Shown piece by piece: positions 1,866 to 39,678 of a stretch of DNA of 46,927 bases. The DNA comes from a virus. Position numbers and translations under genes: made by a program. Position 1 is the stretch's first letter; each line of letters opens with the position of its first letter. Location: IMG/VR virus record IMGVR_UViG_3300030060_003381, positions 1-46,927 of that record; one strand, 5' to 3'. The notes under the pieces were generated by a model. It was not told the origin of the DNA, searched no databases, and worked only from the letters and a program-made list of their open reading frames with translations.

Positions 1866-2109
1866 ACACTTAATAGTACAAATAAAAAAAGAAGGAACTA
1901 CTAAAACTGAAGGTGGTTTACTTTTAGCTGAAAATCAAAGAAAAGACATTAGATATATTGAAGCTACTATATTATCTGTTGGCGATGAAATAAATGGTTT
2001 AAAAAAAAATGATAATATTTATTTTGATAGACACGCTGGTCATAAATTAGAAATAGATAAAAAAGATTATCATGTTATAAAAGCTCAAGATATTGTAGTT
2101 ATATTATGA
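1849..2109 (+). CDS. groES: GroES-type co-chaperonin
   Basis: The 86-residue protein has the GroES barrel pattern: MKAVGKHLIVQI at the start, a mobile loop around residues 13-32 with GGLLLAEN in place of the usual GGIVL motif, and the closing strand QDIVVIL. It should cap the GroEL ring encoded just upstream. The gene order groEL then groES is the reverse of the usual bacterial operon. The ATG lies inside the last codons of groEL (17-base overlap), and its stop overlaps the next start as ATGA, so translation is probably coupled. The assignment is secure; whether it pairs with phage or host GroEL cannot be told from the sequence. Confidence 0.92.
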   Translation: MKAVGKHLIVQIKKEGTTKTEGGLLLAENQRKDIRYIEATILSVGDEINGLKKNDNIYFDRHAGHKLEIDKKDYHVIKAQDIVVIL

Positions 2110-2546
2110 GATTAAATGCAGATGACATTAAGGATTTAAACTTGATGAAGTATTATAGAATAATACGCAAATGGGCTTGTAAAAATAACAATTTAACAGA
2201 CGCTGAATTAGAGTTGTTAATATATTTAGATTGTATAGATTTATTTACCTTAGATGATTTTAAAAAAGGCACATATACTTATAGTTGGAATAATAGGCGT
2301 TGGAATAAATTAATTCAAAATAATTGGATAGTTGTTTGGCGTAATAGAAATAGAACAACGCAAAAGTATAATATATATAAAATATCTTTTAAAGGTAAAC
2401 AACTTATAAAACGTATATATAGAATAATGTTAGGTGAAGAAGATATTAATGTAGGTAGTAGAAATAAAATAATAGTTGGTGATTCTTATATGGATAAAGT
2501 AATGACAAAAGCTATTTATAATTTAAACAAAGATAAAACAAGATGA
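2106..2546 (+). CDS. Winged-helix-like small protein, 146 aa
   Basis: This is a basic protein rich in Asn, Arg, Tyr and Trp. Residues 10-100 look like a winged helix-turn-helix fold: helices (IIRKWACKNN, LTDAELELLIYLDCIDLF), a helix-rich middle with TYSWNNRRWNKLIQNNWI, then a basic beta-wing (VVWRNRNRTTQKYNIYKIS) and a closing helix KGKQLIKRIYRIML. MarR-type DNA-binding proteins share this order, so DNA binding is plausible but unproven. It overlaps groES by four bases (ATGA) and the next gene by four bases, so it sits in a coupled string. It could equally be a structural or regulatory phage protein. Confidence 0.6.
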   Translation: MRLNADDIKDLNLMKYYRIIRKWACKNNNLTDAELELLIYLDCIDLFTLDDFKKGTYTYSWNNRRWNKLIQNNWIVVWRNRNRTTQKYNIYKISFKGKQLIKRIYRIMLGEEDINVGSRNKIIVGDSYMDKVMTKAIYNLNKDKTR

Positions 2547-3214
2547 GTAAAAGTCCATTAAAATTCGGAGCAATAGGAGCTATAGGTTCTATGTTTGGTA
2601 CAATGGGAAATAATCAAATGATTAATTCTTTAACCAACGCTAATGCTTTAGCGGCTCAACAAGCAGCGGCTAGACAAGTTAATAGAAACGCTATAGGTGC
2701 AGCGCAACCAGTAGGAAGCGGAGCTTCAGGCGTTGGAGGAATTAACGATTTATCTCAAATGGTAATGGACGGAAGTATGGCAACTTTTGATCCAGCAGCT
2801 CAACAAGCTGGTATGGGTATATTTGGAAGTAGAGACGCGAGAAACAGAGCGTTGCATCCATCAGCAATTATGATGCATAGTGATGTTCAAAAACAAATAG
2901 ACGCTAAAAAAGAAGAAATAAAAAAAGCTAAAGCTGAAGGAGGAGATCCAGATATAGTTTTTGAATTAAAGTCTGATTTAATGGACTTAGAAAAAGAATT
3001 AAAAACAGCTAAAGAAGCTCATAATTCTCCAGCTAATTATGGTAGTCCTTTAAATGACGATAGAGAAATACCTCAATGGAGAAAAGAACACAACGAGAAG
3101 TTTGCAGCTAAAAAAGCAGCTATTGCGGCTGAAAAAGCAAGGCTTTTAGAAATTACTAGAGCCAGAAGAGAACAAACATATGGAACAGACCAATCTAATT
3201 TTGGAAAAAAATAA
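2543..3214 (+). CDS. SPL-motif protein with Ala/Gln-rich N-terminal half, 223 aa
   Basis: No family is recognised. The protein starts MSKSPLKFG, then has a Gly/Ala/Met-rich hydrophobic stretch (residues 8-35) and an Ala/Gln/Asn-rich region resembling phage ejection or internal head proteins. A charged helical segment (about 115-160, KKEEIKKAKAEGGDPDIVFELKS and following) comes next, then a second motif pair NSPANYGSPLN (161-171) and a basic helical C-terminus. The S-P-L element is shared with several other small proteins in this window. A small virion or cargo protein is my best guess. It is coupled to the preceding gene by an ATGA overlap. Confidence 0.65.
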   Translation: MSKSPLKFGAIGAIGSMFGTMGNNQMINSLTNANALAAQQAAARQVNRNAIGAAQPVGSGASGVGGINDLSQMVMDGSMATFDPAAQQAGMGIFGSRDARNRALHPSAIMMHSDVQKQIDAKKEEIKKAKAEGGDPDIVFELKSDLMDLEKELKTAKEAHNSPANYGSPLNDDREIPQWRKEHNEKFAAKKAAIAAEKARLLEITRARREQTYGTDQSNFGKK

Positions 3215-3226
3215 AAAAAAATAGAT

Positions 3227-3442
3227 ATGAATCACAAATACGATCCAGCAATGGAAAAATTAAAGCCCGGAACTAAAGTAGGTATAGTAGGTGAATCTCA
3301 CATATGGGACGGACCACTAGATCAACAAGGAAGACCTCATGGTGTTGGTTCTAGTTCAGGTATAACAGGTAAGCAAATATTAAAAGCAAAATCTTATTAC
3401 AAAGGCATGCCTATAACTGAGTGTGCTAAAGGATATAAATAA
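3227..3442 (+). CDS. Hypothetical protein, 71 aa
   Basis: A small soluble protein of unknown function. It has Gly-rich turns (KPGTKVGIVGESHIWDG, then GVGSSSGITGKQ) and ends in a basic Tyr/Lys-rich tail with one Cys. No signal peptide or membrane span is visible. It begins 12 bases after the preceding gene with an A-rich leader and is followed nine bases later by the next small gene, so it belongs to the same run of short co-oriented genes. It lacks the S-P-L/S-P-F motif of its neighbours. Confidence 0.6.
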   Translation: MNHKYDPAMEKLKPGTKVGIVGESHIWDGPLDQQGRPHGVGSSSGITGKQILKAKSYYKGMPITECAKGYK

Positions 3443-3450
3443 AAATAATT

Positions 3451-3669
3451 ATGGGATATACACAATATAGCAGTCCTTTTTTACAGGAAAAGTTCCCTGA
3501 AATAAAAGAAGAAAACAAAGGAAAGTTTACAGCTTGGGTAAAGAAAAACATGCCAGATAAATCAACATGTGAAGCAGCTAGCGCTGTTATGGCTAAAAAA
3601 GATAATTATAGTGAGTCAGTAGTAAAAATGGCGAACTATGCTAAAAACTTTGGTTGTTCAAAAAAATAA
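3451..3669 (+). CDS. Small SPF-motif protein, 72 aa
   Basis: The N-terminus MGYTQYSSPFLQEKFPEI carries the S-P-F form of the motif found in many small proteins here (Ser8-Pro9-Phe10). The rest is a compact helical unit: KGKFTAWVKKNMP, then STCEAASAVMAKKDNYSESVVKMANYAKNFG, ending in a Cys and two Lys. From memory, short phage proteins combining S-P-L with a following F-T-x-x-(K/A)-K segment and a NFAKN-like ending are common in marine phages, but no function is known to me. The start is chosen for the A-rich leader AAAAATAATT before ATG. Confidence 0.65.
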   Translation: MGYTQYSSPFLQEKFPEIKEENKGKFTAWVKKNMPDKSTCEAASAVMAKKDNYSESVVKMANYAKNFGCSKK

Positions 3670-3673
3670 AAAA

Positions 3674-4495
3674 ATGAGTTTTTCAAAAAAATTTTGTCGC
3701 AAAACTCCTTTAAGAAACAACACAACAGGTGGTGGATATGATGCAGAAATACACAAGGTAGCGTCTGTTCCAGATAAGCATGCTACAAATATAACTGGTA
3801 CATATAATAAAGCTTATGATGAATACACTAATAAGCATGGTTATATAGATCCAGATGAGTTTGATAAAATGCAACAATCAACAGCACCTACAAAAATGTC
3901 TCCATTAAACTCAGCTTATGAACAAGCTGTAGATACTGCAGGTGCAGCTACATATGTACCTACAGCATCTATGTATCAAAACATGTTTAATGCTATAGGT
4001 TTAGCGGCTCATAATATAAGCGATTGGATGAAAAGAAACCCTGGTAAGCATGCTAGTGGTTTTGATAAAGATACTCATGATTTTTTAGGTAGAGAAAGAA
4101 CAGGTAAAAAAGGTAACTACGTAAGAAAAGGAGATAAAAAAAGATATGAAAAACTAGCTGCTCAAGATGGTTGGACTGAAGATTCTGGTATGAGTGCAGA
4201 AGAATATTTTTTCAAAGATAAAGGATTTAAAGATGTAAAAGATCCATTAGAACGTGAAGAAAAATTAAGAGATTTTGCTGAAACTGCAGGTCGTGTTACA
4301 GAAAAAAATGAAGGTTTTACTCTTGAGAGAGACGATCATGGATTTTTAACAGGTGGAGGAGAATATATGGTTACAAATGCTGATGGTTCAACTGCTAAAA
4401 CTGATAAATCGCAATTAACCGTAGATGACAATTATCATCCGGATTTAGAAACCTACGAAGAGTTTAAACAAAGAACTGGAATAAAAACTACATAA
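3674..4495 (+). CDS. Hypothetical protein with SPL motif, 273 aa
   Basis: A longer frame opens at 3638 inside the preceding gene, but the ATG at 3674, just after that gene's stop and an A-run, is the more likely start and gives MSFSKKFCRKTPLRNN. A motif variant T-P-L occurs at residues 11-13 and a full M-S-P-L-N at 75-79. Between and after them the protein is polar and acidic/basic, rich in Asp, Lys, His, Gly and Tyr, with no membrane segment. I do not recognise a family. The position among small motif proteins suggests a virion-associated or early-assembly role, which is inference only. Confidence 0.62.
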   Translation: MSFSKKFCRKTPLRNNTTGGGYDAEIHKVASVPDKHATNITGTYNKAYDEYTNKHGYIDPDEFDKMQQSTAPTKMSPLNSAYEQAVDTAGAATYVPTASMYQNMFNAIGLAAHNISDWMKRNPGKHASGFDKDTHDFLGRERTGKKGNYVRKGDKKRYEKLAAQDGWTEDSGMSAEEYFFKDKGFKDVKDPLEREEKLRDFAETAGRVTEKNEGFTLERDDHGFLTGGGEYMVTNADGSTAKTDKSQLTVDDNYHPDLETYEEFKQRTGIKTT

Positions 4496-4503
4496 ATAAT
4501 AAA

Positions 4504-4908
4504 ATGGGATATTCAAAAGGACATTATGGAAAATACACTGGAAACTCTAAGTTTTCAGAAGATCATGCTCACACAAGAGTAACAAAAGAAAATTATAAAG
4601 CAACTGAAAGAGATGACGCTGCTCATATTGATTATCTTAAAAGAGATATTGATTATGATGCTAAGCATGGTCATAGTGATGAAAATATGACTGCTGATGA
4701 AAAACATATTTCAAAATTAGCAGGTGATATGAAATACGATAAAGAACATCATGGTTCGCCAGCAAAGAAATTAGATTCTAGAATGAAATATGGTCATGAA
4801 GATTTTGATTATGATTTTGCTAGCGATGCAGGTGTTTTTGATAAAGAACTAAGCGCTGATAAAGGAGTTAGAAGAGCTCAAAAAAGATATAGAAGAAAAA
4901 CTAAATAA
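4504..4908 (+). CDS. His/Asp/Lys-rich protein with internal repeat, 134 aa
   Basis: The protein is extremely polar. Two copies of a pattern H-I-x-x-L-x-x-D-x-x-Y-D-x-x-H start at residues 41 and 68 (27-residue offset). A diverged partial copy, MKYGHEDFDYD, follows near 94-104. The second copy runs into H-G-S-P-A-K-K, a form of the S-P motif (Ser85-Pro86). The C-terminus is basic (RRAQKRYRRKTK). It starts MGYS, like its neighbours at 3451 (MGYT) and 4916 (MGYN). The dense His/Asp could bind metal, but there is no recognised domain. Confidence 0.62.
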   Translation: MGYSKGHYGKYTGNSKFSEDHAHTRVTKENYKATERDDAAHIDYLKRDIDYDAKHGHSDENMTADEKHISKLAGDMKYDKEHHGSPAKKLDSRMKYGHEDFDYDFASDAGVFDKELSADKGVRRAQKRYRRKTK

Positions 4909-4915
4909 TTATAAA

Positions 4916-5224
4916 ATGGGATACAATAAAGAAAAAAATGAATCACCAGTTCCTAATTTAAATAAAGGATATGGTCACGAATCAGTAAAAACAGAAAGAC
5001 ATGATTTATTAAATGATAATCCAGTAGCAAGAGACGCTAGTGGAGATAGACCTTGGATTTCTAAGCATTTTAAGTCTACAATGGGAACATCACCTTTAAC
5101 AAAAAAAGTTGTAGAAGAAGACGCTAAAAGACCAAAACCAGAAGCAAAACCTGATTTTATTGATGCTGATGGTGATGGTGATACACAAGAACCTATGGTG
5201 GACGCAGTAGCAGACGCTAAATAA
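4916..5224 (+). CDS. Small SPL-motif protein, 102 aa
   Basis: A polar, probably disordered protein starting MGYNKEKNESPVPNLN (S-P-V at 10-12) with a second, better motif G-T-S-P-L-T-K-K at 57-64. After that comes a Pro/Lys/Glu-rich linker. The C-terminus carries an acidic loop, DADGDGDTQEP, resembling an EF-hand calcium-binding loop, followed by MVDAVADAK. The calcium-loop resemblance rests only on the spacing of acidic residues. The gene is seven bases after its predecessor and is the last of the first motif-protein cluster. Confidence 0.6.
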   Translation: MGYNKEKNESPVPNLNKGYGHESVKTERHDLLNDNPVARDASGDRPWISKHFKSTMGTSPLTKKVVEEDAKRPKPEAKPDFIDADGDGDTQEPMVDAVADAK

Positions 5225-6396: not shown

Positions 6397-6705
6397 ATGG
6401 CTTTTAAATTAAATAATCCTCCGTATAAACTAAACAGCGTCCCTGTTTATCATGTTGATATGGAAGAAGGTGTAATGGGTAAAGCTAATAACAATGGAAC
6501 AATTATTATTAATAAAGACCTTGATCCTAACAAAGTAAAAGATGTAATTAAGCATGAGATGGTTCATATAAATCAAATGCAAAGAGGTGATCTTGATTAT
6601 GATGATGATTGTGTATATTGGAAAGGTAAATGTTATCCTAGAGCTAGTATGAAAGAAGGAGCAAAAAATTTACCTTGGGAAGCAGAAGCATATAAAAACG
6701 CATGA
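6397..6705 (+). CDS. Small zinc metallopeptidase-like protein, 102 aa
   Basis: The protein carries an HExxH zinc motif, H53-E54-M-V-H57, within a helix (DVIKHEMVHINQMQRGDL). A downstream Glu in PWEAEAYKNA (95 or 97) is placed to be the third ligand, as in gluzincin-like mini-peptidases. Two Cys (72, 79) sit in an acidic DYDDDCVYWKGKCY segment between them. This pattern, with the E-x-E-A-Y ending, is common in small phage metallopeptidase-like proteins. The substrate is unknown; peptidoglycan or a virion protein is conceivable. The stop overlaps the holin-like gene as ATGA, hinting at a shared lysis or morphogenesis role. Confidence 0.7.
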   Translation: MAFKLNNPPYKLNSVPVYHVDMEEGVMGKANNNGTIIINKDLDPNKVKDVIKHEMVHINQMQRGDLDYDDDCVYWKGKCYPRASMKEGAKNLPWEAEAYKNA

Positions 6706-13679: not shown

Positions 13680-13704
13680 TATTTAATTATATTATATTAT
13701 GTCA
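13680..13704 (+). promoter_or_regulatory. A/T leader before the scaffold gene (copy 1)
   Basis: Twenty-five bases, including the ATG and TCA of the second codon, are identical to 16437-16461 before the gene that follows the major capsid protein. The core reads AATTATATTATATTATG. The two sites lie about 2.76 kb apart. A shared translation-initiation or promoter element for highly expressed head genes is plausible. TATATTAT could act as a -10-like box, but no -35 partner was identified. Confidence 0.6.
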
Positions 13705-14922
13705 GAAAAAACAAAAACAAATGAACCTGTTAAACAGGAAGGTGAATTTACATTAAAAGGTAAAAAGAAACCTACAAAACCAAAACAACTTGGAAACAAA
13801 AATCAAGAAATACAAAAGGTAAACATTAAAGAACCTTTAGTAGAAGTTGAAAGTAATGTTAAAAAAGTTGAAATCAAAGAAGAAGTAAAAAAAGAAGACG
13901 ATGCCATTCAAATCGGAGAAACAGAGAAAGTATCTGTGGCTGAACCATCCGGAGATAGCACAGAGGTGGGAGAACCTGTACAAGAGTCCAACGAGACTGC
14001 TGAAGGGTTTTCTCCGATCAAAGAAGTAACAGAAGAAGAAGTTAAAAAAGTTGAAGCAGAAATAAAAGAAGCTGTAAGAGACGAAAAAGTATTAGGTAAA
14101 CAATTACCTGAAAACGTTGAAAAACTTGTTAACTTTATGGAAGAAACAGGTGGTACTGTAGAAGATTATGTAAGACTAAATGCAGACTACTCTAGTGTTG
14201 ATGAAAAAGCATTATTAAAAGAATATTATAAAAAAAATAAACCTCATTTAGATACCGACGATATAAATCTTATTTTAGAAGATTATGAGTGGGACGAAGA
14301 TATACATGAGGAAAAAGAAATACGAAAGAAAAAACTAGCTTTTAAAGAAGAAGTTGCTAAAGCTAAAAATTATTTAGAAGAGCTAAAAACTAGGTATTAT
14401 GATGAAATAAAATTAAGACCTGGTGTTACTCAAGAGCAACAAAAAGCTATGGAATTTTTTAATCGTTACAATAAACAGCAAGAACAAGCTGAGCAACTAC
14501 ACGATGCGTTTAAACAAAAAACTCAAACGCTTTTCAATGAAGAATTCAAAGGTTTTGATTTTGAAGTTGGAGGCAAGAGATATAAGTATAACGTGCAAAA
14601 TCGTGACCAAGTTGCAGAGAACCAATCAAACATTAACAACTTAATAGGGAAGTTCCTAGATTCAGATGGAAATGTAGTAGACCCGGCTGGTTATCATAAA
14701 GCAATGTATGCTGCTTCAAACGTAGATAAAATCGCTACACATTTTTACGAGCAAGGTAAAGCTGATGCAGTAAAAGAAGTGGTAAACAAATCTAAAAATC
14801 TTTCTGATGTGAAAGCAAGAGAAGGAAATAAAGGTGATGTTTTCGTTGGTGGAATGAAAGTGAAATCAATTAGTGGTGCAGATTCTACAAAACTTAGAAT
14901 TAAAACTAGAAAATTTAACTAA
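13699..14922 (+). CDS. Candidate capsid scaffolding protein, 407 aa
   Basis: The gene lies between portal and major capsid protein, the usual place for the scaffold. The protein is highly charged and helical: a Lys/Pro/Glu-rich N-terminus (to about 110), a long Glu-rich coiled-coil region (about 110-290, with QEQQKAMEFFNRYNKQQEQA), and a basic C-terminus ending LRIKTRKFN. Basic C-terminal ends bind the coat protein in several scaffolds. Composition and synteny are the evidence; no specific motif is recognised. It starts after the repeated A/T leader. Confidence 0.75.
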   Translation: MSEKTKTNEPVKQEGEFTLKGKKKPTKPKQLGNKNQEIQKVNIKEPLVEVESNVKKVEIKEEVKKEDDAIQIGETEKVSVAEPSGDSTEVGEPVQESNETAEGFSPIKEVTEEEVKKVEAEIKEAVRDEKVLGKQLPENVEKLVNFMEETGGTVEDYVRLNADYSSVDEKALLKEYYKKNKPHLDTDDINLILEDYEWDEDIHEEKEIRKKKLAFKEEVAKAKNYLEELKTRYYDEIKLRPGVTQEQQKAMEFFNRYNKQQEQAEQLHDAFKQKTQTLFNEEFKGFDFEVGGKRYKYNVQNRDQVAENQSNINNLIGKFLDSDGNVVDPAGYHKAMYAASNVDKIATHFYEQGKADAVKEVVNKSKNLSDVKAREGNKGDVFVGGMKVKSISGADSTKLRIKTRKFN

Positions 14923-23691: not shown

Positions 23692-25194
23692 ATGGGCGCA
23701 GTAGTTGAAGTAAAGTTTTTTAACTCTTTTGTATTAAAGAAGATAATAAATGCCGGTAACGATATTATTTGGAATGGTTCTTATGGTATACCCGCTAGTT
23801 TACCAGGTGGTTATCCAGCCACAACTGCAGGAATAGATGATGAAGATTTTGCACTTGAAGAAGCTAGAATACGTGGCGGGTTTAATAATACAGCTACAGA
23901 TTATGGAGCAAAAGCATATTTAGTAGAAGAAGAACCAGCTGGATATATAAGATTTAACGCTTTAATATACTCTGGTATATTTAATTCTAGAACAGGTATA
24001 AATAATACCAATGTATTTAGTACAGCAGAAGATATTGAAAAAGCTACAGATCCATCAAATGGAAGTATTCAAAAATTATACGCTGAAGATACTAACTTAA
24101 ATATATTTCAAGAACTTAAAGTAAGTAGAGCATTGATAGACAAAGATGCTATTTTTACAGCAGAAGGTAATCCAAATGTTACAGCAAGTAATTTAGTTAT
24201 TGGTGTTATTCAACCAATACCAGGTAAGTATGGTATAAGTAAAAACCCAGAAAGCTTTGCTATTTATGGAAATAACAAGTATTTTACAGATAAAAATAAT
24301 AATGTAGTTTTATCGTTAAGAGGCAGCGGAATAGTTGAAATATCTCAATTAGGTATGAGAGACTTTTTTAGAGATAAATTAAATGAGTTAGATATTAACG
24401 CTATACGGGGTAAAGCTGTTGGTGGTTGGGATATATATAACCAGCAATATGTATTATCTTTACAACAACAAGATGAAGTAAAATCATCTAATACAGAATA
24501 CAATACAGTTGTATATGATGAGGGTGTACAGGGTTGGACTAGTTTATTTGATTATCGACCTGATCAAATGTTTAGTTTAAGAAATAATTTTTACAGTACT
24601 ACAGCATCTAGTTTATATCAGCATTATAGTAATAATGTTCCACGAGGACAATATTATGATGTAGAATATCCTAGCACTATAACTGTTGTATTTAATCCAG
24701 AACCTACTAGGTCTAAAACTTTTAGCACTATAGGTTATGAAGGAAGTAATGGTTGGAGATTAAATTCTTTAATTTCTGATGAAACAGGTAAAGATAAAAA
24801 CATAAGTGGAAACTTTGAGTTTACAAATGATATAACAGCTAGTATACCAAGTTATTATGAAGGAGAATATGTATTTAATCCAGTTGGCGGAGCAGTTGTA
24901 AATGCTGTTGCTGGTAATGTATATGGAGCTGGTTACAATGCTGTATTTGGAACTGATAATCCGGCTTTAGATAGATATAATGCTGGTTTTACTAGAAAAG
25001 AAAATCATTACGTAGCAAACGTAATAAACAATAGTTTTACTACAAATAGAGAAATTATATTTGGTAATGCTATAAGTGGAATAAAAGGATATTATACTAC
25101 AGCAACTTTTTCAACAGATGAAGTTACTAATAAAGGAGGTTTAAAAACTTTATTTTCAGTAGGAGCAAAATTTGATTCAAACAATGGATATTAA
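23692..25194 (+). CDS. Tail hub protein, C-terminal part as a separate gene, 500 aa
   Basis: The product contains the segment NPESFAIYGNNKYFTDKNNN followed by VVLSLRGSGIVEISQLGMRDFFRDKL. From memory this normally ends hub/stabilisation proteins that start like the gene just upstream. The N-terminal 170 residues are beta-rich with an irregular Gly/Asn stretch. The two genes are separated by 19 bases with a stop between, so the hub seems to be made as two chains. The rest is Tyr/Asn/Gly-rich beta sequence. A separate nozzle protein is the alternative reading. Confidence 0.7.
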   Translation: MGAVVEVKFFNSFVLKKIINAGNDIIWNGSYGIPASLPGGYPATTAGIDDEDFALEEARIRGGFNNTATDYGAKAYLVEEEPAGYIRFNALIYSGIFNSRTGINNTNVFSTAEDIEKATDPSNGSIQKLYAEDTNLNIFQELKVSRALIDKDAIFTAEGNPNVTASNLVIGVIQPIPGKYGISKNPESFAIYGNNKYFTDKNNNVVLSLRGSGIVEISQLGMRDFFRDKLNELDINAIRGKAVGGWDIYNQQYVLSLQQQDEVKSSNTEYNTVVYDEGVQGWTSLFDYRPDQMFSLRNNFYSTTASSLYQHYSNNVPRGQYYDVEYPSTITVVFNPEPTRSKTFSTIGYEGSNGWRLNSLISDETGKDKNISGNFEFTNDITASIPSYYEGEYVFNPVGGAVVNAVAGNVYGAGYNAVFGTDNPALDRYNAGFTRKENHYVANVINNSFTTNREIIFGNAISGIKGYYTTATFSTDEVTNKGGLKTLFSVGAKFDSNNGY

Positions 25195-25212: not shown

Positions 25213-25905
25213 ATGTCAGCAGGAGCAATTATAGGCGGCGCGGTAAGTATCGTAGGAGGTATTTTTGGTGCTAGTAGAGCTAGACGTGAAGCTAGAAGAA
25301 GAGAGGCTCAAGCTAGAGGACTAGAAGCAAAGCTAAATGAACTAGAAGCTAACAGACAAGAAATAATTGATCCTTATGAGAATATAACTGATTTAAGCAG
25401 CATGCTATCAAATCCGTTTGCTAATTTATCTGTAGCAACAAAAGCTACTGAAATTCAAATGGAAGAAACAGATATTGCATTAGCAAATACATTGGATACA
25501 ATTAGATCAACTGGTGGTGGAGCCGGTGGTGCTACAGCTTTAGCTCAAGCTGCATTACAAAGTAAAAGAGGTGTAGCCGCTAATATTGAGCAACAAGAAG
25601 CTGCTAATAATAGACAAAGAGCTCAAGGTGAAGCAACGCTACAACAACAAAGAATGGCTGAAGCTCAAAGACAGCAACAAGCTGATATGCAAGGTGAATT
25701 ATTTACCTTCCAGGCACAAGAGCAAAGAGACATGCAGCAAATGAATAGATTATCAAATCAAATTGGTGCTTTAAGAGGACAAGCAGCTATGGCTAGAGCA
25801 GATGCAACAGCTGCAATAACAGGAGCGATTGGAGGAGCGGCTAATTTAGCAGCCGCAGCTTTCGCACCTCCAGCACCACCTTCTGATGATGGAGATACAC
25901 CATAA
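25213..25905 (+). CDS. Internal virion / ejection protein (T7 gp14-like layout), 230 aa
   Basis: A Gly/Ala/Ile-rich hydrophobic stretch at the N-terminus (about 3-22) leads into an Arg/Glu/Ala coiled coil (RRREAQARGLEAKLNELEAN). A Gly/Ala linker and a Gln-rich helix follow, then a second hydrophobic Ala/Gly segment (about 196-215) and a Pro tail. This order and size resemble the small ejection proteins of short-tailed phages, which leave the head first and enter the outer membrane. Position after the tail hub and before two larger internal proteins agrees with the core-protein order of T7. Sequence identity with T7 gp14 is not apparent. Confidence 0.68.
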   Translation: MSAGAIIGGAVSIVGGIFGASRARREARRREAQARGLEAKLNELEANRQEIIDPYENITDLSSMLSNPFANLSVATKATEIQMEETDIALANTLDTIRSTGGGAGGATALAQAALQSKRGVAANIEQQEAANNRQRAQGEATLQQQRMAEAQRQQQADMQGELFTFQAQEQRDMQQMNRLSNQIGALRGQAAMARADATAAITGAIGGAANLAAAAFAPPAPPSDDGDTP

Positions 25906-27038: not shown

Positions 27039-30000
27039 ATGCAGACTTACGATGATTATTTAGCAACTGTTCCTGAAGGTCAAGAGCCTTTAAGTGCGGA
27101 AGAGTTTGAACAATCACTTGTCGACAAAGAAGACAAAGAAATCAAAAAACTTCGTAGCGACGAACAGATGGTGTCTGATTCAGCAAAAATAGCTGAAAAC
27201 ATTGACGACAACGAAATGATAACTATTGGTGTGTCAGGTGACTTAGCTACAGATGTTGGTAAAGAAGGTTATAGAGGTTCAACAAGACTTAAAAAAGAAG
27301 ACTTGCTTACATCACAAACATTGATGAATCAAGCATATCAATACATCGATACTGTAAGCTCTGATGGTTTTGTAAAATATGATGAAAATGTTTTAAAAGA
27401 TAAAGCTGCTGAATTATATTTTGGTGAAGTAGATGATTATGAAGCTGATTACACTTGGGATAAAACAAAATCAAAAAATGATCCTAGAGGAAGATATTAT
27501 GGTTACAACTTAATAGCTGATGTTAATAATGCTAATCAAAGAGGTGAATATGAAACAGAAGAGGAGTATCAAGCGGCTTTAGCTAGTGCAAAAAGAGAAG
27601 CGCATAAAAAATTTGGTAACCAAGATGATTATGATAAATATTTAAGAGAGACTCTCGGTGATAAATATGAGGCATACATAAAATATAAAAAAGGTGAAGA
27701 TGTTGAAATGGATGACGATGTTATCCAAAGAGCTAAAGAAAAACTATTTGCAGAAGAATTAAATAGATTTAATAGAAGTGATGAGGGTTTTGGTGGTAAG
27801 TATGGTGAAGAAATACAAGAAATAGTAAAAATATTAACTGGTGATGTTAAATCTAAAGAAGAGCTTTATAAAGCAACTAATGTAACTAAAGATTTAATAA
27901 ATGCGAAAGCAGCTTCTGTTGAACAACAACAAGCTGAATTAGAGAAAAAGCAAAAACCATTTGTTGATGCTATTGATGAAGCTGGTAAAAAAATCATTGA
28001 TGAGTTTGGTGAAAATTATCAAGATTTTGGTAGAAGATATAGTGACGGTAAATTAATGGGCATGAATGATGATTTATTTATGTCTGAAGAAGATTTTGAA
28101 GAAAAGAAAGTGTTATTTACACAGTACATGGAAGACTATTCTGCTGCATATGATGCGTATACCCAACAAGATTTTGAAGGACAATACGATTTATTAATAA
28201 AAAATTCTGACAATTTAGGTGTTTTAGTTAATAAATACATGAAAGATGTAGAAGCTATAGCAGATAGTAGTGATAAAGATTATCTTATTGCTAAAGCAGC
28301 TGGATTTGATTATAGTATAAGTGGTAGAGCCGCTGCTGCTATGGAAGATTTTTTCATTAAAGGAGGTAAAAATGTTTTAAATTTAACTGGTCAGTTAGGT
28401 TTAAAAGCTATTAAAGCACTAACTTTTAATCCAGCTTTAGATGCACAAATAGATAAGACTATAAAAAATATGTCTGATGGTATTGCTAATTACAATCAAA
28501 GATTAGCACAACATAGAGCAGAAACTTTACCACCTGCTTTAACTTTAGATGATGTAGAATTTGGTGCTGATGGATCTGGTGTTTTACGTTATGTTGGTGA
28601 GGCTTTAGCAGATAACAGTCCTTCAATTTTAACTACTTTTATACCAGCTGGTTTAGCTATAAAAGGAGCTGCTGGTGTAGCAAGAGCTACTCAAGCATTG
28701 AAAGCAGCTAGAATTGGTAAAGGTGGTGTAAGACTTCATGGTAATGCCAAAGCTGTACAAACTGCAAACGCTGCTTATAGAGAGGCGTTAGCAACTCAAA
28801 AAACATATGGTTTATATGGTATGAGAGCAGCTCAGGGAATATTCTTTGCTGGTGAATCTGGTGGTAAATATGGAGATATTGTTGTAGAAGAGTACAATAT
28901 TAGAGATCGTATAGATGAAATAAATGAAAGACTTGAAATAGAATCTTTACCAGAAGGTGAAAGAAAAGCTTTAATTCAAGAAAAAGAAGAAGCAAATAAT
29001 ACTTTAAGCAATAATTATAGTTTTGCAAGAAAAGCTTTTTCATCATACGGTTTTGGAGCTGTAGCTACAGTAGCTGAAACAATGGGTTCGTTAAGTTTGG
29101 TTAGTGGTGTACAAAAAGCTGCTAGATCTTATGCTAAAAAAGAAATAAAAAAAGAATTATATACTAATGCCACTAATTTTAAAGGTGTATTAGCAGGTAC
29201 GGTTATCAAAGGATTAAGACCAGCTGTAACCAAAGCAATGCCTAGTGAAGTATTTGAAGAAGCATTTACACAAGTAGGTCATAATGCTATAGATATTGTA
29301 GCATTAAATGAAGACAAGAGTTTGTTAGAGGGTTTAAATGCTGACTTCTTTGTTAAAACAGCTATTACTTCTTTTGCTATTATGGCGCCTACTACAATGA
29401 ACAACACTAGACAAATGTTACAAGATGAGTTTAAAACTCGTGATGAAATGTTAGATAATAAAAGTGATGTTCACAGATTAATAACAATACAAGGTAGATT
29501 AAATTCAGGAGCATTAGACACAAAAGAAAAAAGAGCTTTTTATAACGCTGAGAAAAAAGCTTTAATTAAAAAATTAGGTTTTTATGATGCGCAAGTCATG
29601 CAAAAATTGAATCACATGACTGAGGCTGAAATACGAGAAGTTGCAGATATAAATCAAAAACAAAGATTTTTAGATAAACAAATGAAAGGTTTAGCTTCAA
29701 CAGGAGGATCATTGGAGCAAGATAAGGTATTTGAAAAAACTAAACAAGATTTAAGAAAAGAATCAGAAGCTTTAGAAATAAGAAAAAATGAATTATTAAA
29801 TCGTAAAACTGAAAATGTATTAGAAAACCAAAAAAGATTAAACGAGAAGTATGGTACATCACCTAATATAGATTTAGCTTACACATTAGGTTTAAATGAT
29901 TTTGCTTTTGATGCTGCGTTAACTATGTCAGATAAAAATAAAAAGTTCACGCAAATAAGTTCTGAATCTTTTCAAAATCCAGCTGCTATTAGAGCAGAGT

Positions 30001-33000
30001 TAGAAGCTGCAGGTTATGAAGCTGCTGATGTAGATTTAATAGTAGATAAGTTTATGGGTGAAACACAGTCTAATGCAATGTATTTACCTAATGGTGATAT
30101 AATTATCAACCAAGGCGCGATTGATGCTAGAATGCACTCATCTAATCAATCTGATGGTAATTATGCTGCTTTAGCTCCATTAGAAGAATTATTTCATGCT
30201 ACTATAAAATCTAAGGGTTTAAAAGTAGAGGGTTTACTTAAAAAAGATGCTGCTCTTGCTACTAACGAATTGTTAGAGCTTATTAAAGGTAAAATGGAAA
30301 CTGGTACTCCTAAGCAAAAAAAGGATTTACAAGATTTACTTGAAAGAGTAGAAATGTACAAAAGCAATGGTGAGTACAATTATGAAGAAATGCTAGCTCA
30401 AATAAACAATGGTATGATGCTAGGTGTTATTAATGCTAGTGATTTTCAAGCTTTACCATCGTTTAAATCTTTTTTAAATGGAGCTATACAAAAAATATTA
30501 GGTGATCCATCTTGGATGTTAGAATTAAACACAGCTTCAGATGTAAATCAATTTATGAATAATTGGCGTGGTAATATATTAGAAGGTAAAGCTGGTATTG
30601 ATCAAATACCGCCAGAAGATGAAATTGTAAATGCAAAGCCAAACATTAGAGATGACGAAGCTATGCAGTCCGTTGGACAAGTTATACCACAAGCTACTCA
30701 AGCTTATATGGAGTTAGACAACGAAATGCTTCAACAAGGTTTAAATGAAGCTATACAAAATAAAACCGATCAACAGTTTCCACTAGCACAGGCACTAGTA
30801 GAAAAAAACTGGCCATTAATAAGTAAGTCACTTAATATCAATAATCAACAAGAAATGGAAGCTGCTAAAGAAGTTGTTATTGATCAAATATTAGGACAGT
30901 TTGAAGGATCTGGTCAAGGTAAATATGGTCCAAGAAATACTAGTGCATTAGCTGGTTTTGATTTAGAAGGTGGAGCTCAAGTTAGTACATATTTAGCTGA
31001 AACAATAAGAACTAGAAAACCTGAAATTGATGCGGCTATAGCTGATAGAACTGGTGGTCCTGGGATTCAAGTTGATCAAGTTGGCGATGTAGTAACACAA
31101 ACTGAAACAACAGAAGTAGCAAAAGTTAGACCAGTGCCTAGCAAAACAACTAAGTTTTCTAAAGACATATTAGCTAGAGTAGAAACTGATAAAGCTGGAT
31201 TAGAAACTAAAATAACTGAAGCAGTTCAAGAATCATATAAAGGAAAAGAAGTTACATTAGCAGAGACTAGAAATATTCCTGAAAAAGTAGCTAAGGTTTA
31301 TACAGATATGTTGGAAATAACTAATCCTAACAGATTAACGGATAAGTCTCAAACATTTTCAGTAACAGATGAAGCTGGTTTAAGAAATGCTCAAATGTTT
31401 TTAACTCAAAATGCTCAAGCTGATTTTGCTAATTTACCAAAAGCATTAGATGCAAGTGGTAAAGGTACATTTATACCACTTAATGTTAAGCGAGCTTTAT
31501 ACACAGATGGTAAAAAAACAGGCAGTTTAAAAGATTATTTAGATCTTATTAAAATACCTGCAACAAAAAAGATTTATAGAGATAGTGCTAAAGTAGGTAC
31601 AATTAGAGGTTTATTATCATTACATATACGTAATCGTATGTTAGAAACTGCTCAACCTGATTCTGCTAAAAGAAAAGCAAGTGGAGCTCAGTTTAGTAAA
31701 GGTAAAAAAATAAATCTAAATAAATATAAAGAAATTGCTAGAGCAAAAGATAAAAATGCTGCTAATGATATAGTAGGCACTAAAACAGAAATAAACCAAG
31801 ACAATAGAAAGAAAGTTCAAGATGAGGTTCAAAACGCTATTGAAACACAAGGTTTAAATGAAAATACTTTTAATGCTGCTAGATTTAATAATGCAGGAGC
31901 ACAAAGAACTAGATTAGAAAATGGTGATGTAGTTTATGATTTATCAAATGGTAAAAAAATAAAAGGTGTGCCAATTTATGAAACTGGTACTAAAAAAATT
32001 AAAAGAAACAAAGACGGTAGTAAAAGATTTAAACAACCTACATTAAAACAAATTGAAGCAGAGTTTGGCGAAGGTGTTACTTTGGTTCCTGGTAGAAATA
32101 GATTGTATTATGGTGTTAATGATCCAGCTTATATAAAAGCTAGAGATGCAGCTATAAAAAACAATAAAAAAGGTCAAAAAACATTTAAAAGAGTCACTGT
32201 TAAAAATGCTTTTACTGAAAAAGGTAGAAAACAAGCTGCTATTAACATGGATATTTTAGAAGAAACGGCTCTTGAATTAGAAAAAGCTGTTGCAAATGGA
32301 ATGCCATTAAGTATTGCTGCTATTATAATTGAAGGAGCATATCAATCTACAAATGGTTTAATAAAAGTAGCCGCGCCATTTAAGTATAAATCAACTAAAT
32401 TTGAGTATGCTGAAGATGGTAAAAAATCAGATAGACAGGGAAATAAGTATAGAGAAGAACATAGTCCACCAGCATCTGTTATTGGAGCTTCTTTATTATT
32501 AGCTATAAAAAATGGTAACGTTAAAGATGTTATGTCTGGTATTAGAGATAATTTTATTCAAATACAATTATCTAAAAAAGATGATACTAAACTAGATAGA
32601 GCAGGTTTTGCTAGTATTTTACCAGAAGACACAAGTGTTTTAACTCCTAATATTGCAGCGATAAGATTAGCAGCTGCAGATATTAATTTAAATTCTATTG
32701 TAAACCCTGTAACTGGTAAAACAATGGCTGAAGAAGTAGGTTTACCAATAAAAAATAAAGCTGATATTAATTTAGAATCAGTACATTATCAAAATGAATT
32801 AATAGTAGAAAGTAAAGGTGAAATACTACCTATACATAAACAAAAATTAAAAGCGAGTTTACCAGTACAAAATGCTAAGGCGAATGTAGCAAGTGAAAAT
32901 GCTAATGATTTTGATGTAATAGTTAACAAAGAACAAAGATCACAACAACAAAAAGATGTTATGATTGCTTCTATGGAAAGTAGAGGCAAAGCTATTGAAA

Positions 33001-35777
33001 GAGTAAAACCTACAAAAGGTATTAGCGTATTTGATTTTGATGATACGTTAGCTAAAACTAAAGAAAAGGTTATAGTTAACATGCCTAATGGTGAAACAAG
33101 AGAAATAAGTGCATCAGAATTTGCTGAAACAGCTGGTCAATTAGAAGCAGAAGGTGCTGAATTTGATTTTAAGAATTTTGAAAATGTAGCTAAAGATACT
33201 CAAGAAGGACCACTGGCTGATCTAGCTAGGAAACGTCAAGGTAAGTTTGGTAGTGGAGATATATTTGTTTTAACAGCTAGACCCAATAGCGCAGGACCAG
33301 CTATACAAAAATTCCTTAAAAGTATTGGTATAAATATACCTTTAAAAAATATTACTGGATTAGCTGATGGATCACCACAAGCTAAAGTTGATTTTATATT
33401 AAACAAAACAGCTGAAGGTTATAATGATTTTTATTTTGCTGATGATTCTTTTGCTAATGTGGAAGGTGTTAAACAAGTTTTAGACGCATTAGACGTTAAA
33501 AACGAGGTTCAGCAAGCCATGGAAAGCAAAGGTAGAAAACTAAACCAAGAGTTTAATAAGCAAATAGAAGAAGTTACTGGTGTTGGTAGATTTAAACAAT
33601 ATTCAACAGCTAGAGCTAAATTAGAAGGAAAAAAGAAAGATGGAGGTTTAGTAAAAAGATTTATTAGACAGTTTAAAATTACCCCATCAGCTGATGATTT
33701 TTTAGGTTTGCTATATTCTATTGTAGGTAAAGGTGAACAAGGAAATAAACATTTAAAATTTATAAAAGATAATTTAATAGATGTTTATAACAAAGCAGAA
33801 AGAGAATTGTTATCTGCTAAAGTAGCTGTAGCTAGAGACTTTGCCGCGTTAAGAAAAAAGTTTCCAACATTAAAAGGAAGTAAATTAAGTTTTAGAAATC
33901 CGTTGTTAAAAGAAATAGATGGAGGACCTTTTAATAAAGAGCAAGCTATAAGAGTTTACATATGGAATAAACAAGGTAATGATATACCTGACATGTCTAA
34001 AAGAGATATAAATAGACTGGTTAAAGCAGTAGAAGCAGATCCTGAACTAAGCGTGTTTGCTGATGAATTACAACTTATTCAAAAAGGTAGAACATATCCT
34101 GCTCCAGGAAAAAATTGGTTAGGTGGAAGTATTAAAAACGATATAATAGATGGACTAGACACATCGTTTAGAGCAGAACTAATGAAAGAGTTTAATGAAA
34201 ATGTTGATGCTATATTTGATGACGCAATGTTTAATAAACTTGAAGCTATATATGGAAGTAAATATGTAGAAGCCTTAAAAGATTCTCTACGTAGAATGAA
34301 AAGCGGTAGCAACAGACCAGTTATGGTAGGTGCAGGTGCAGGTTTAGTAAATGAAATGCTAGACTGGTTAAATGCTTCTGTTGCAAATGTTATGTTCTTA
34401 AACATGAGATCTGGTTTGCTTCAAACTTTATCTGCTGTAAACTTTATAAATTGGGGTGATAATAATATTGTAGATGCTTCTAAAGCTTTTGCTAGTAAAG
34501 AAATGTGGCCAACATTTTTAAAATTAATGAATTCTGATTACTTAGTTAACAGACGTGATGGTTTAAAAATAAATGTTAATGAAGCTGAACTTGCAGATGC
34601 GGCTAAAAAAGGTGGTATTAAAGGAGCTTTTAGTTACTTACTAGATAAAGGTTTTGCTATTACAAGAATAATGGATAGTTTTGCTATAGCATTAGGTGGT
34701 GCGCCATTTTTTATTAATCGTAAAAAAGCTTTACTTAATAGAGTTAATCCTAAAACAGGTAAAAAATATACTGAAGCTGAAGCTGAAGAGCAAGCATTTG
34801 CAGATTTTTATGCCATAGCAGAAGACACTCAACAATCTAGTAATCCAAGTAAAATATCTTCTCAACAAGCAAGTTTTGCTGGTCGTCTACTTTTATCGTT
34901 TCAAAATGTTACGATGCAGTATAATAGAAAAACTAAAAAATCTATACAAGATCTATATAATAGACGTAAAAAGCCTGGTATGACTCAACGTGAAAGTGAT
35001 ATGAGTAACTTGTCTAGTATTGTTTATTATGTTGGTATGCAGAACTTAATGTTTAATGCTTTGCAACAAGCAATGTTTGCTATGTTGTTTGATGAAGAAG
35101 ACGAAGACAAAAGAAAAGATGATAGGTTGGCAAGGACATTAAATGGTATGGCTGATTCGTTGCTGTTTGGTCTTGGTTTTGGTGGAGCAATAATTTCTAC
35201 TACTAAAAACATACTTATGCGTGTTGCTGAAGAATCAGATAAAAATAAACCTGATTATAGAGATATACCTGACGATGTGTTTGATGTAAGCTCTGTTATA
35301 GATGCTAAATATAGAAAACTTAAATCAGCAGCTAGAACATTTACATTTGAAAGAGATGAAATAAAAAGAAGAGGTTGGAGCTTAGATAATCCAGCTTACT
35401 TAGCAGTAGCTCAAATAATATCTGCTGTTACTAATGCTCCTGTAGATAGAGTATTAATGAAAGTTAACAATTTAAGACAAGCCTCAGATGAATCTGTTAG
35501 GATGTGGAAAAGAGTAGCTTTAACTCTTGGTTGGAGTGGTTGGAACTTTAATTTACCATATTGGGGAAGACAAAGTACAGTTGAAAGAGAAGCTAAAGAA
35601 GATGCTAATATTAAAGAAAATTACGAAAAACAAGTTAAAGAAGTTAAGTCCAAAGGATTTACTAAGAAAATTCCAATGGAAGGACCGAATCATTATAAAC
35701 CAAAAGGTGAACTTGGTGTAGATTATATGCAAGTAGAAAGACCAAGTGGTGTCATACAATATTACGTAAAACCATAA
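27039..35777 (+). CDS. Giant internal virion protein with HAD-like domain, 2912 aa
   Basis: The N-terminal 500 residues are acidic and helical. A Gly/Ala hydrophobic zone (about 520-560) and further hydrophobic stretches (700-800) follow, as expected for a channel-forming ejection protein. Around 1040-1060 lies a peptidase-like LEELFHATIK (1048-1057) in which the first His of HExxH is Glu. Residues 1994-2150 form a HAD-type phosphatase-like domain: D1999-F-D2001-D-T2003 (motif I), F-V-L-T2079-A-R-P (motif II), and F-A-D2135-D2136-S (motif IV). The C-terminal 600 residues have membrane-like helices (LLFGLGFGGAIIS). The position corresponds to T7 gp16-type core proteins injected with DNA. Confidence 0.8.
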   Translation: MQTYDDYLATVPEGQEPLSAEEFEQSLVDKEDKEIKKLRSDEQMVSDSAKIAENIDDNEMITIGVSGDLATDVGKEGYRGSTRLKKEDLLTSQTLMNQAYQYIDTVSSDGFVKYDENVLKDKAAELYFGEVDDYEADYTWDKTKSKNDPRGRYYGYNLIADVNNANQRGEYETEEEYQAALASAKREAHKKFGNQDDYDKYLRETLGDKYEAYIKYKKGEDVEMDDDVIQRAKEKLFAEELNRFNRSDEGFGGKYGEEIQEIVKILTGDVKSKEELYKATNVTKDLINAKAASVEQQQAELEKKQKPFVDAIDEAGKKIIDEFGENYQDFGRRYSDGKLMGMNDDLFMSEEDFEEKKVLFTQYMEDYSAAYDAYTQQDFEGQYDLLIKNSDNLGVLVNKYMKDVEAIADSSDKDYLIAKAAGFDYSISGRAAAAMEDFFIKGGKNVLNLTGQLGLKAIKALTFNPALDAQIDKTIKNMSDGIANYNQRLAQHRAETLPPALTLDDVEFGADGSGVLRYVGEALADNSPSILTTFIPAGLAIKGAAGVARATQALKAARIGKGGVRLHGNAKAVQTANAAYREALATQKTYGLYGMRAAQGIFFAGESGGKYGDIVVEEYNIRDRIDEINERLEIESLPEGERKALIQEKEEANNTLSNNYSFARKAFSSYGFGAVATVAETMGSLSLVSGVQKAARSYAKKEIKKELYTNATNFKGVLAGTVIKGLRPAVTKAMPSEVFEEAFTQVGHNAIDIVALNEDKSLLEGLNADFFVKTAITSFAIMAPTTMNNTRQMLQDEFKTRDEMLDNKSDVHRLITIQGRLNSGALDTKEKRAFYNAEKKALIKKLGFYDAQVMQKLNHMTEAEIREVADINQKQRFLDKQMKGLASTGGSLEQDKVFEKTKQDLRKESEALEIRKNELLNRKTENVLENQKRLNEKYGTSPNIDLAYTLGLNDFAFDAALTMSDKNKKFTQISSESFQNPAAIRAELEAAGYEAADVDLIVDKFMGETQSNAMYLPNGDIIINQGAIDARMHSSNQSDGNYAALAPLEELFHATIKSKGLKVEGLLKKDAALATNELLELIKGKMETGTPKQKKDLQDLLERVEMYKSNGEYNYEEMLAQINNGMMLGVINASDFQALPSFKSFLNGAIQKILGDPSWMLELNTASDVNQFMNNWRGNILEGKAGIDQIPPEDEIVNAKPNIRDDEAMQSVGQVIPQATQAYMELDNEMLQQGLNEAIQNKTDQQFPLAQALVEKNWPLISKSLNINNQQEMEAAKEVVIDQILGQFEGSGQGKYGPRNTSALAGFDLEGGAQVSTYLAETIRTRKPEIDAAIADRTGGPGIQVDQVGDVVTQTETTEVAKVRPVPSKTTKFSKDILARVETDKAGLETKITEAVQESYKGKEVTLAETRNIPEKVAKVYTDMLEITNPNRLTDKSQTFSVTDEAGLRNAQMFLTQNAQADFANLPKALDASGKGTFIPLNVKRALYTDGKKTGSLKDYLDLIKIPATKKIYRDSAKVGTIRGLLSLHIRNRMLETAQPDSAKRKASGAQFSKGKKINLNKYKEIARAKDKNAANDIVGTKTEINQDNRKKVQDEVQNAIETQGLNENTFNAARFNNAGAQRTRLENGDVVYDLSNGKKIKGVPIYETGTKKIKRNKDGSKRFKQPTLKQIEAEFGEGVTLVPGRNRLYYGVNDPAYIKARDAAIKNNKKGQKTFKRVTVKNAFTEKGRKQAAINMDILEETALELEKAVANGMPLSIAAIIIEGAYQSTNGLIKVAAPFKYKSTKFEYAEDGKKSDRQGNKYREEHSPPASVIGASLLLAIKNGNVKDVMSGIRDNFIQIQLSKKDDTKLDRAGFASILPEDTSVLTPNIAAIRLAAADINLNSIVNPVTGKTMAEEVGLPIKNKADINLESVHYQNELIVESKGEILPIHKQKLKASLPVQNAKANVASENANDFDVIVNKEQRSQQQKDVMIASMESRGKAIERVKPTKGISVFDFDDTLAKTKEKVIVNMPNGETREISASEFAETAGQLEAEGAEFDFKNFENVAKDTQEGPLADLARKRQGKFGSGDIFVLTARPNSAGPAIQKFLKSIGINIPLKNITGLADGSPQAKVDFILNKTAEGYNDFYFADDSFANVEGVKQVLDALDVKNEVQQAMESKGRKLNQEFNKQIEEVTGVGRFKQYSTARAKLEGKKKDGGLVKRFIRQFKITPSADDFLGLLYSIVGKGEQGNKHLKFIKDNLIDVYNKAERELLSAKVAVARDFAALRKKFPTLKGSKLSFRNPLLKEIDGGPFNKEQAIRVYIWNKQGNDIPDMSKRDINRLVKAVEADPELSVFADELQLIQKGRTYPAPGKNWLGGSIKNDIIDGLDTSFRAELMKEFNENVDAIFDDAMFNKLEAIYGSKYVEALKDSLRRMKSGSNRPVMVGAGAGLVNEMLDWLNASVANVMFLNMRSGLLQTLSAVNFINWGDNNIVDASKAFASKEMWPTFLKLMNSDYLVNRRDGLKINVNEAELADAAKKGGIKGAFSYLLDKGFAITRIMDSFAIALGGAPFFINRKKALLNRVNPKTGKKYTEAEAEEQAFADFYAIAEDTQQSSNPSKISSQQASFAGRLLLSFQNVTMQYNRKTKKSIQDLYNRRKKPGMTQRESDMSNLSSIVYYVGMQNLMFNALQQAMFAMLFDEEDEDKRKDDRLARTLNGMADSLLFGLGFGGAIISTTKNILMRVAEESDKNKPDYRDIPDDVFDVSSVIDAKYRKLKSAARTFTFERDEIKRRGWSLDNPAYLAVAQIISAVTNAPVDRVLMKVNNLRQASDESVRMWKRVALTLGWSGWNFNLPYWGRQSTVEREAKEDANIKENYEKQVKEVKSKGFTKKIPMEGPNHYKPKGELGVDYMQVERPSGVIQYYVKP

Positions 35778-37254: not shown

Positions 37255-37728
37255 ATGGGAAAAAAAGAAAGATTACAAAGAAGAGTCAAAAGAATTGACG
37301 ATAGGTTTAAAGCAAAGGTTGCAAAAGGAAAAAAAGGCACGGATAGTGATATTCAAAATCATGAAAATAGAATAGAACGTTTAGCTAAGAAAGGTGGATT
37401 TACTGCTCCTTTTATGTCAAAATCTCCTTTAAAAGAATTAGGAGAAGTACATATAGGAAACCCTAATGAAACTCCTGACGGTAAAAAATTAGGTCCTACA
37501 AAAATAGGAAATAAGTTGATGGAACCTCATATGGAAACTATTACAAATGCGGCTAATGCTATAAATTCAGGAGATGAAGGAGCTATTGAAAACGCAATTA
37601 ATACAAAATTAAAATTAACTTCAGGTGGAAAAGGTAGAACCTCTACTGGAGCTCCAATTAGCGTGCCTTCATTTACAACTACAGTGTATGATGCAACAAA
37701 AGAATCTGGTTTAATAGAAGACGAATAA
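37255..37728 (+). CDS. SPF/SPL-motif protein with basic N-terminus, 157 aa
   Basis: The first 45 residues form a very basic helical segment (GKKERLQRRVKRIDDRFKAK, then ENRIERLAKK), which could bind nucleic acid. Directly after it stands F-T-A-P-F-M-S-K-S-P-L-K-E-L (residues 49-62), the same block that opens the next genes at 37743 and 38215. The remainder is a polar region and a C-terminal Gly/Ser/Thr/Pro stretch with SAPVPSFTTTVYD-like beta character. Function unknown. The internal position of the motif suggests a modular tag behind an added N-terminal domain. Confidence 0.65.
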   Translation: MGKKERLQRRVKRIDDRFKAKVAKGKKGTDSDIQNHENRIERLAKKGGFTAPFMSKSPLKELGEVHIGNPNETPDGKKLGPTKIGNKLMEPHMETITNAANAINSGDEGAIENAINTKLKLTSGGKGRTSTGAPISVPSFTTTVYDATKESGLIEDE

Positions 37729-37742
37729 TAAAACAAGTAATT

Positions 37743-37931
37743 ATGAGTAAATTTAGTTCGCCATTTATGGCAAAAAGTCCCTTAAATAGTAGAAAAGGAG
37801 AAAAAGTTTCTTGGAAGTATGGAGATGGTACATATAGCGGTACATGTATAAATGATGATTGTAGTAGAGCTAGAACCGAAAATGGTAAAGTTAAATACTT
37901 ACCTAAAAATAAAAAGAATAAAGATGATTAA
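37743..37931 (+). CDS. Small SPF/SPL-motif protein, 62 aa
   Basis: The N-terminus MSKFSSPFMAKSPLNSRKGE carries the most complete form of the shared motif. The rest is a compact WKYGDGTYSGTCINDDCSRA unit with two Cys, then a basic tail. The K-V-S-W-K-Y-G-D-G-T-Y-S-G pattern resembles a small beta-hairpin or Tudor/SH3-like strand pair, which is only an impression. Its stop lies eight bases inside the next gene. With the genes at 37255 and 38215 it forms a local trio sharing the motif. Confidence 0.68.
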   Translation: MSKFSSPFMAKSPLNSRKGEKVSWKYGDGTYSGTCINDDCSRARTENGKVKYLPKNKKNKDD

Positions 37932-38211: not shown

Positions 38212-38214
38212 ATC

Positions 38215-38403: not shown

Positions 38404-38413
38404 TAATAAATAA

Positions 38414-39526: not shown

Positions 39527-39527
39527 A

Positions 39528-39677: not shown

Positions 39678-39678
39678 T

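Follow-up and report, generated by a model that had tools for sequence, protein, structure and literature searches.

Why should a series of otherwise unrelated small phage proteins carry the same short element? The question is raised by IMG/VR virus record IMGVR_UViG_3300030060_003381, all 46,927 nucleotides of which were analysed (the window, 46.9 kb; its genes are named by their start coordinate). Two clusters of genes in this window, A (2543-5224) and B (37255-40874), encode small proteins with a recurrent Ser-Pro-hydrophobic element, and an earlier note had seen in them a phage-wide set addressed to one common partner, with capsid, portal or GroEL to be examined for a binding groove. The comparisons presented here show a tag selected at the protein level, near-exclusive to late genes and limited to one phage clade. 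That this tag is real and modular I consider nearly certain. That it would act as a docking tag, by which interchangeable small proteins are loaded into the virion in the manner of the capsid targeting sequence (CTS) of phage T4, though unrelated to it, is a reading to which I assign a probability of about 0.5.

Results

In clusters A and B of the window, SP[LFV] is observed 11 times where within-protein shuffles predict 0.93 (p < 0.0002), and the wider motif SP[LFVIMAY] 14 times against 2.34, while SP[LFV] stays at expectation in the virion block (6 vs. 4.1, p = 0.23) and in the remaining genes (1 vs. 1.0). As the motif had been picked after inspection of the window, it was retested in relatives. 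With the conserved 146-residue gene immediately 5' of cluster A (2106-2546, plus strand) as anchor, 80 IMG/VR relatives were collected and 75 analysed; gene calls on their contigs are mechanical, and several of the relatives are fragments. The first small protein of cluster A alone retrieved two loci as a query and 37255 a single one, and the 2106 gene and an M15 peptidase gene served as anchors instead. Downstream of the 2106 anchor, nearly all of six syntenic slots contain the element in the relatives. When all tripeptides were scanned without bias in 156 cluster-A proteins of relatives (non-redundant at 50%), SPL came second, with 35 copies in 28 proteins where 4.5 copies are expected, and SPF came fourth (18 vs. 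2.6), the top-ranking MGH being derived from tandem repeats in 8 proteins.

The controls in these cluster-A proteins stay near or below expectation: 0.85x for PS-hydrophobic, 0.72x for SP followed by a non-hydrophobic residue and 0.95x for another residue followed by P-hydrophobic. Genes 5' of the anchor give 1.36x and large virion-block proteins 1.05x. The relatives of cluster B, reached through the M15 peptidase gene, show the same excess (SPL 20 vs. 3.0, SPF 15 vs. 1.8), as do 200 mutually non-homologous small proteins from eleven clade members (SPL 31 vs. 4.8, SPF 13 vs. 2.9, controls 1.0x). Variants with T-P or N-P are weakly enriched (about 2x), which leaves S-P-[L,F,M,V,A,I] as the core of the motif. 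It had been allowed that composition might account for the looser motifs; with this excess in the window, and its persistence in relatives, it does not.

The element is also non-random with respect to strand and to its location within proteins. On the late strand 84 copies are found where 14.8 are expected, compared with 9 versus 5.2 on the other strand, and the first 20 residues hold 30 of 66 copies (7.4 expected). Conservation is higher for Ser and Pro (0.64) than for the flanking residues (0.37; Wilcoxon p = 5e-6, in a set of partly related cases). The tag Ser is encoded by TCN and AGY codons at background frequency, 53 cases comprise 29 distinct 9-mers, and the DNA 5' of tagged genes is mutually unrelated, which together indicate that selection acts on the peptide.

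What follows the tag is exchangeable. Single-linkage clustering of the 294 proteins with an N-terminal tag gave 55 payload families, 21 of which have at least two distinct members; with this kind of linkage the largest group probably combines several. In the third slot of cluster A leaders of one kind, as a rule M-x-Q-Y-x-SPF-[FL]-K, precede three payloads without mutual similarity (best E 0.2), namely A (KGKFTAW..), B (KGCAKSEGGSG..) and C (RKTTKGKG.., DUF6321), and in cluster B the leader KF[ST]SPFMxKSPL stands ahead of many unrelated sequences. The reverse is also seen: a payload with SKCSSL has this latter leader in one relative (L216_3558) and MYKQFNSPFRK in another (L197_3003). Payload A, payload C, KHSDAPDAKGKF and SVVSQLKKASK all occur untagged in other phages. 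In DUF6321 (PF19846), the pelagiphage members start at the domain itself whereas those of flavobacterial phages have the tag added. The 37924 protein scores 39.3 bits against a cut-off of 28.5, the class C proteins of slot 3 also exceed the cut-off, and in 30 aligned homologues the tag Pro is invariant (30/30) while the leader varies in length and sequence.

In an AlphaFold2 model of the slot-3 protein (3451) the leader is disordered, with a pLDDT of about 50, and the payload forms three helices with a pLDDT of 77-89; the DUF6321 protein (37924) shows a weaker trend in the same direction (54 for the first ten residues, 81-94 for the rest). Foldseek comparison of these slot-3 and DUF6321 models with the PDB gave no significant match, nor did searches of the phage collection with the slot-5 protein and the CKAAAKRKF payload find any. 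Long phage proteins without assigned function in PHROG families 727, 3477 and 10346 match several of the same payload modules, which may thus be strung like beads elsewhere.

Every motif quoted in the earlier note was located at the gene named, all of these genes being on the plus strand (numbers after a motif give the residue of the element). Slot 1 (2543-3214, 223 residues) has the tag MSKSPLKF at residues 1-8 (KSPLK, 4) and a second element, YGSPLND, at 166-172 (GSPLN, 168); its relatives retain M[SN][KN]SP[ILFV][NK]F where the remainder of the protein has diverged. Slot 2 (3227-3442, 71 residues) has a conserved WDGPLDQ element with Gly in place of Ser, and across its relatives the stretch GESHIWDGPLDQxGRPHGxGSSSGITG contains G-P-L instead of S-P-L. 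In slot 3 (3451-3669, 72 residues) the tag MGYTQYSSPFLQ (SSPFLQ, 8) leads into a class A payload with three predicted helices. Slot 4 (3674-4495, 273 residues; the longest open reading frame begins at 3638) contains KTPLRN at 10-15 (11) and MSPLNS at 75-80 (76), the His-rich slot 5 (4504-4908, 134 residues) HGSPAKK at 83-89 (GSPAKK, 85), and slot 6 (4916-5224, 102 residues) ESPVPN (10) and TSPLTK (59), with tandem GHSPAEM/HESPAKM repeats at this position in relatives.

In cluster B, the 157-residue protein of 37255-37728 has an internal double element, FTAPFMSKSPLKEL; SKSPLKE (57) in this protein is additional to the motifs noted earlier. The gene at 37924-38211 (95 residues) joins the tag MINKSPFY (KSPFY, 5) to the DUF6321 payload. 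Its neighbour at 38215-38403 (62 residues), in which TSPFMARSPLAE is likewise an additional element, starts with the double tag MSNFTSPFMARSPLAEL that recurs on many unrelated payloads. TSPVL at 18-22 (19) of 40140-40874 (244 residues) can be taken as a tag position, since the homologues of this protein begin MEISKFSGPFMMKSPIDP. The impression that the elements lie mostly near the N-terminus was right for about half of the occurrences; GSPAKK (4504), GSPLN (2543), MSPLNS and TSPLTK are internal. Alongside the tag cluster, EF-hand-like loops (DINKNGKIDDWE, DQNGDGEITRAD and DLDKDGSMSEYE) were seen in slot-1 and neighbouring small proteins of relatives (L149 7444, L069 1-225, L050 262-645).

The phage and its clade

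The window belongs to a podovirus: for its terminase, portal and major capsid protein there are matches to PHROG head families and to proteins of Elemovirus, Cellulophaga, Maribacter and Tenacibaculum phages, with identities that are low in most cases. The slot-3 payload is encoded on two contigs of Flavobacteriaceae metagenome-assembled genomes, which points to flavobacterial hosts. A late protein of 500 residues (23692-25194) contains the crassvirus muzzle C-terminal domain (PF25729, E 1.5e-9, above cut-off), and the tail of this phage is therefore probably crassvirus-like; the domain connects the phage group with crassvirus-type tails.

The tag follows a phylogenetic boundary. Tag-bearing phages share 62-86% identity with the window in the major capsid protein and 64-88% in GroEL, compared with 48-50% and 36-38% in the neighbouring, tag-poor clade, seven relatives of which have SPL at just 7 versus 3.9. 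Of the relatives that were examined in full, all 10 with the tag have the genes 3227, 25213 and 27039, which went undetected in each of 7 tag-poor ones. The small-protein pattern is absent from Elemovirus, Cellulophaga phi19:3 and phi38:1, Tenacibaculum Gundel_1 and Maribacter Panino. The phage GroEL is far more diverged between the two clades (36-39% identity) than the capsid protein is (52-56%), suggesting a separate chaperonin origin in one of them.

Three further regions of the window deserve mention. A conserved small protein of HExxH type with a weak match to the metallopeptidase DUF6782 (6397-6705) is always found just 3' of cluster A. A ribonucleotide-reductase-like open reading frame at 41259-42490 stops early and seems to go on in another frame, possibly through a frameshift or an intron, as judged by reading its sequence, and a protein at 42683-43156 resembles a SET-domain methyltransferase (KDAGLGLFA...EELIIDYG) by the same kind of reading.

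Discussion

The best indication of where the tagged proteins go comes from payload A. With the tag removed, its profile has three matches among the late proteins of crassviruses. One is to the N-terminal part of a cr127_1 protein (E 2e-17 to 4e-17), the others to a cr50_1 protein (9e-13 to 1e-12) and a cr128_1 protein (4e-12). The cr50_1 match is a 72-residue protein encoded between the portal and major capsid genes, whereas the cr128_1 protein is 44-49% identical to gp45 of PhicrAss001 over two long parts, with a neighbour 35% identical to gp46. In the PDB the sole match of the profile is to residues 371-419 of gp45 (E 0.15, weak alone). This gp45 is the cargo protein C1; mass spectrometry places it in virions, and cryo-electron microscopy shows it bound to the portal and the tail barrel (PMC10172136). 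A domain inside a packaged crassvirus cargo protein thus appears to occur here as a separate, tagged late protein, in a phage that also has the muzzle C-terminal domain. The resemblance is confined to the domain, as in the crassviruses it lies within the large C1 protein and has no SP tag, while 3451, with 72 residues of tag and domain, does not have the full-length C1 architecture of transmembrane segment and portal-binding domain. Between the modules of gp45 (L317 16988-19516) stand elements of the type [FY]xxGG (AFAEGGGL, FAYGGDT), which might be an analogous motif; as the signal is marginal (p about 0.05), I do not claim it.

A close parallel in working is T4, in which diverse internal proteins that are to be injected enter the head by means of a conserved leader, ten residues of which are enough for IPIII (PMC9026906, PMC3012670). 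The internal proteins IPI, IPII and IPIII and Alt likewise have a short N-terminal leader on otherwise unrelated, often basic small proteins, and payloads vary strongly among related phages there (PMC3012670, PMC9026906), as they are exchanged behind a conserved leader here. The two systems differ in sequence as far as inspected, the present one having an S-P-hydrophobic element, doubled, internal and tandem copies and tens of payload families, and they differ in their phages, T4 being a myovirus and the window phage a podovirus with a probably crassvirus-like tail. No T4 internal protein came up when the tagged proteins were scanned against PHROG and Pfam, a direct comparison not having been made. 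Encapsulin cargo-loading peptides similarly bring unrelated cargo into a protein shell by means of a short peptide. However, no encapsulin takes part here, the element is mostly N-terminal, and its sequence is unrelated to those peptides.

I therefore propose that S-P-[L/F/M/V/A/I]-x may be a short linear docking tag, usually placed in a leader of the form M-x-x-x-Q-Y-x-SPF-x-K or M-x-K-F-[ST]-SPFMxKSPL. In a clade of marine flavobacterial podoviruses it is fused to swappable small late proteins, N-terminally as a rule and sometimes between modules. It would bind a single phage assembly protein, and its carriers would thereby be built into the virion during assembly and enter the host together with the genome, as in the T4 internal-protein system; the varied payloads might then act early in infection. 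In its most general form, the proposal is that of a generic, clade-wide peptide address code, not related to the T4 CTS, that loads a fast-exchanged repertoire of more than 20 recurrent families for injection, and in which a module acquired by recombination becomes cargo once it has the tag; this I hold to be possible, at slightly less than even odds.

As for the common partner, the comparative evidence leans towards the virion interior, because one payload is a cargo domain and because the ejection-like proteins 25213 and 27039 are restricted to the clade. The best candidates are the gene between portal and major capsid protein, a probable scaffold by position alone (13699-14922), or two others: a glycine-rich, ejection-like protein of 230 residues with what looks like a membrane-type N-terminus (25213-25905), and a giant late protein of 2912 residues (27039-35777), all on the plus strand and the latter two detectable in the tag-bearing clade only. 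GroEL is a candidate as well, and co-occurrence does not separate partnership from common descent. Searches of the PDB by phmmer with 25213, 27039, 13699 and 16456 found no usable match. Of the earlier proposal, the part that stands firmly is that unrelated small proteins share one common element, the looser set included; capsid, portal and GroEL were not singled out as the partner.

Several observations weigh against loading into the virion. The link to gp45 covers one payload of about 20, and some payload copies are untagged within tag-bearing phages (e.g. L224_1975). A few members of the clade (G005, G031) have little tag, and the phage collection searched yielded no cultured tag-bearing phage. 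No prohead protease was recognised in the scanned virion genes, several of which are unannotated, and no consistent cleavage motif was found. Internal and tandem copies, such as GSPAKK and the HESPAKM repeats, are atypical of a T4-type leader and may have another role.

Alternatively, the tag may send small proteins to a hub outside the virion, such as the host RNA polymerase, a host protease or another late phage factor, as a late host-takeover motif. The motif evidence fits any common partner equally well, and some relatives of payload A and DUF6321 are stand-alone small proteins without virion assignment. I nevertheless consider this unlikely, as payload A is part of crassvirus cargo proteins and the tag is nearly confined to genes of the late strand that adjoin those for virion and lysis, although early expression would be expected of takeover proteins.

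Recognition by the phage's own chaperonin, with the tag marking clients for folding or holding, is suggested by the groEL (318-1865) and groES (1849-2109) genes directly upstream of cluster A on the plus strand, by the GroEL identities that split according to tag status (64-89% in the tag-bearing and 36-39% in the tag-poor clade), and by the hydrophobic residue after S-P, which is plausible as a ligand of the apical domain. However, every virion gene also diverges between the clades, Elemovirus has a GroEL gene but no such enrichment, and the tagged proteins are small, mostly disordered or simply helical, and so improbable clients; I do not expect this explanation to hold. Still less do I expect the element to be a processing or linker site at which a phage protease frees modules. 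Such a site would account for the SP elements between payloads in multi-module proteins (L205_910, L217_5555), and T4 leaders both target and are cleaved (PMC9026906), but no protease is recognised in the virion block, the flanks have no cleavage-site consensus, and proteins starting M-K-SPL would lose next to nothing by cleavage at residue 5-10.

Two further explanations I reject. An SPKK-like motif for minor-groove DNA binding would suit the many basic tagged proteins (pI 9-10) and the occurrence of GSPAKK and SPLKK, yet it is hardly credible when the enrichment requires a hydrophobic third residue (0.72x otherwise), the next residue is N, K or E without basic preference, and the proteins with the tag include acidic ones. 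The other explanation is that chance, shared ancestry or a recombination site at the DNA level produced the pattern. For it speak the weakness of single S-P-x matches and the clear movement of the modules by recombination, but it is practically eliminated by the excess in mutually non-homologous proteins, the background Ser codon usage and the diversity of 9-mers.

My literature searches found no earlier description of a protein-level tag that spans tens of unrelated families of small proteins within a single phage clade, and this holds whether or not the virion step is included. Should the tag be a signal for virion loading, injected proteins would become predictable from sequence in abundant, mostly uncultured marine phages, many 'hypothetical' small proteins would gain a likely role, and a minimal tag for the packaging of foreign proteins would be at hand. 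It would then represent a second, independent instance of the T4 internal-protein strategy, in a crassvirus-related group of phages.

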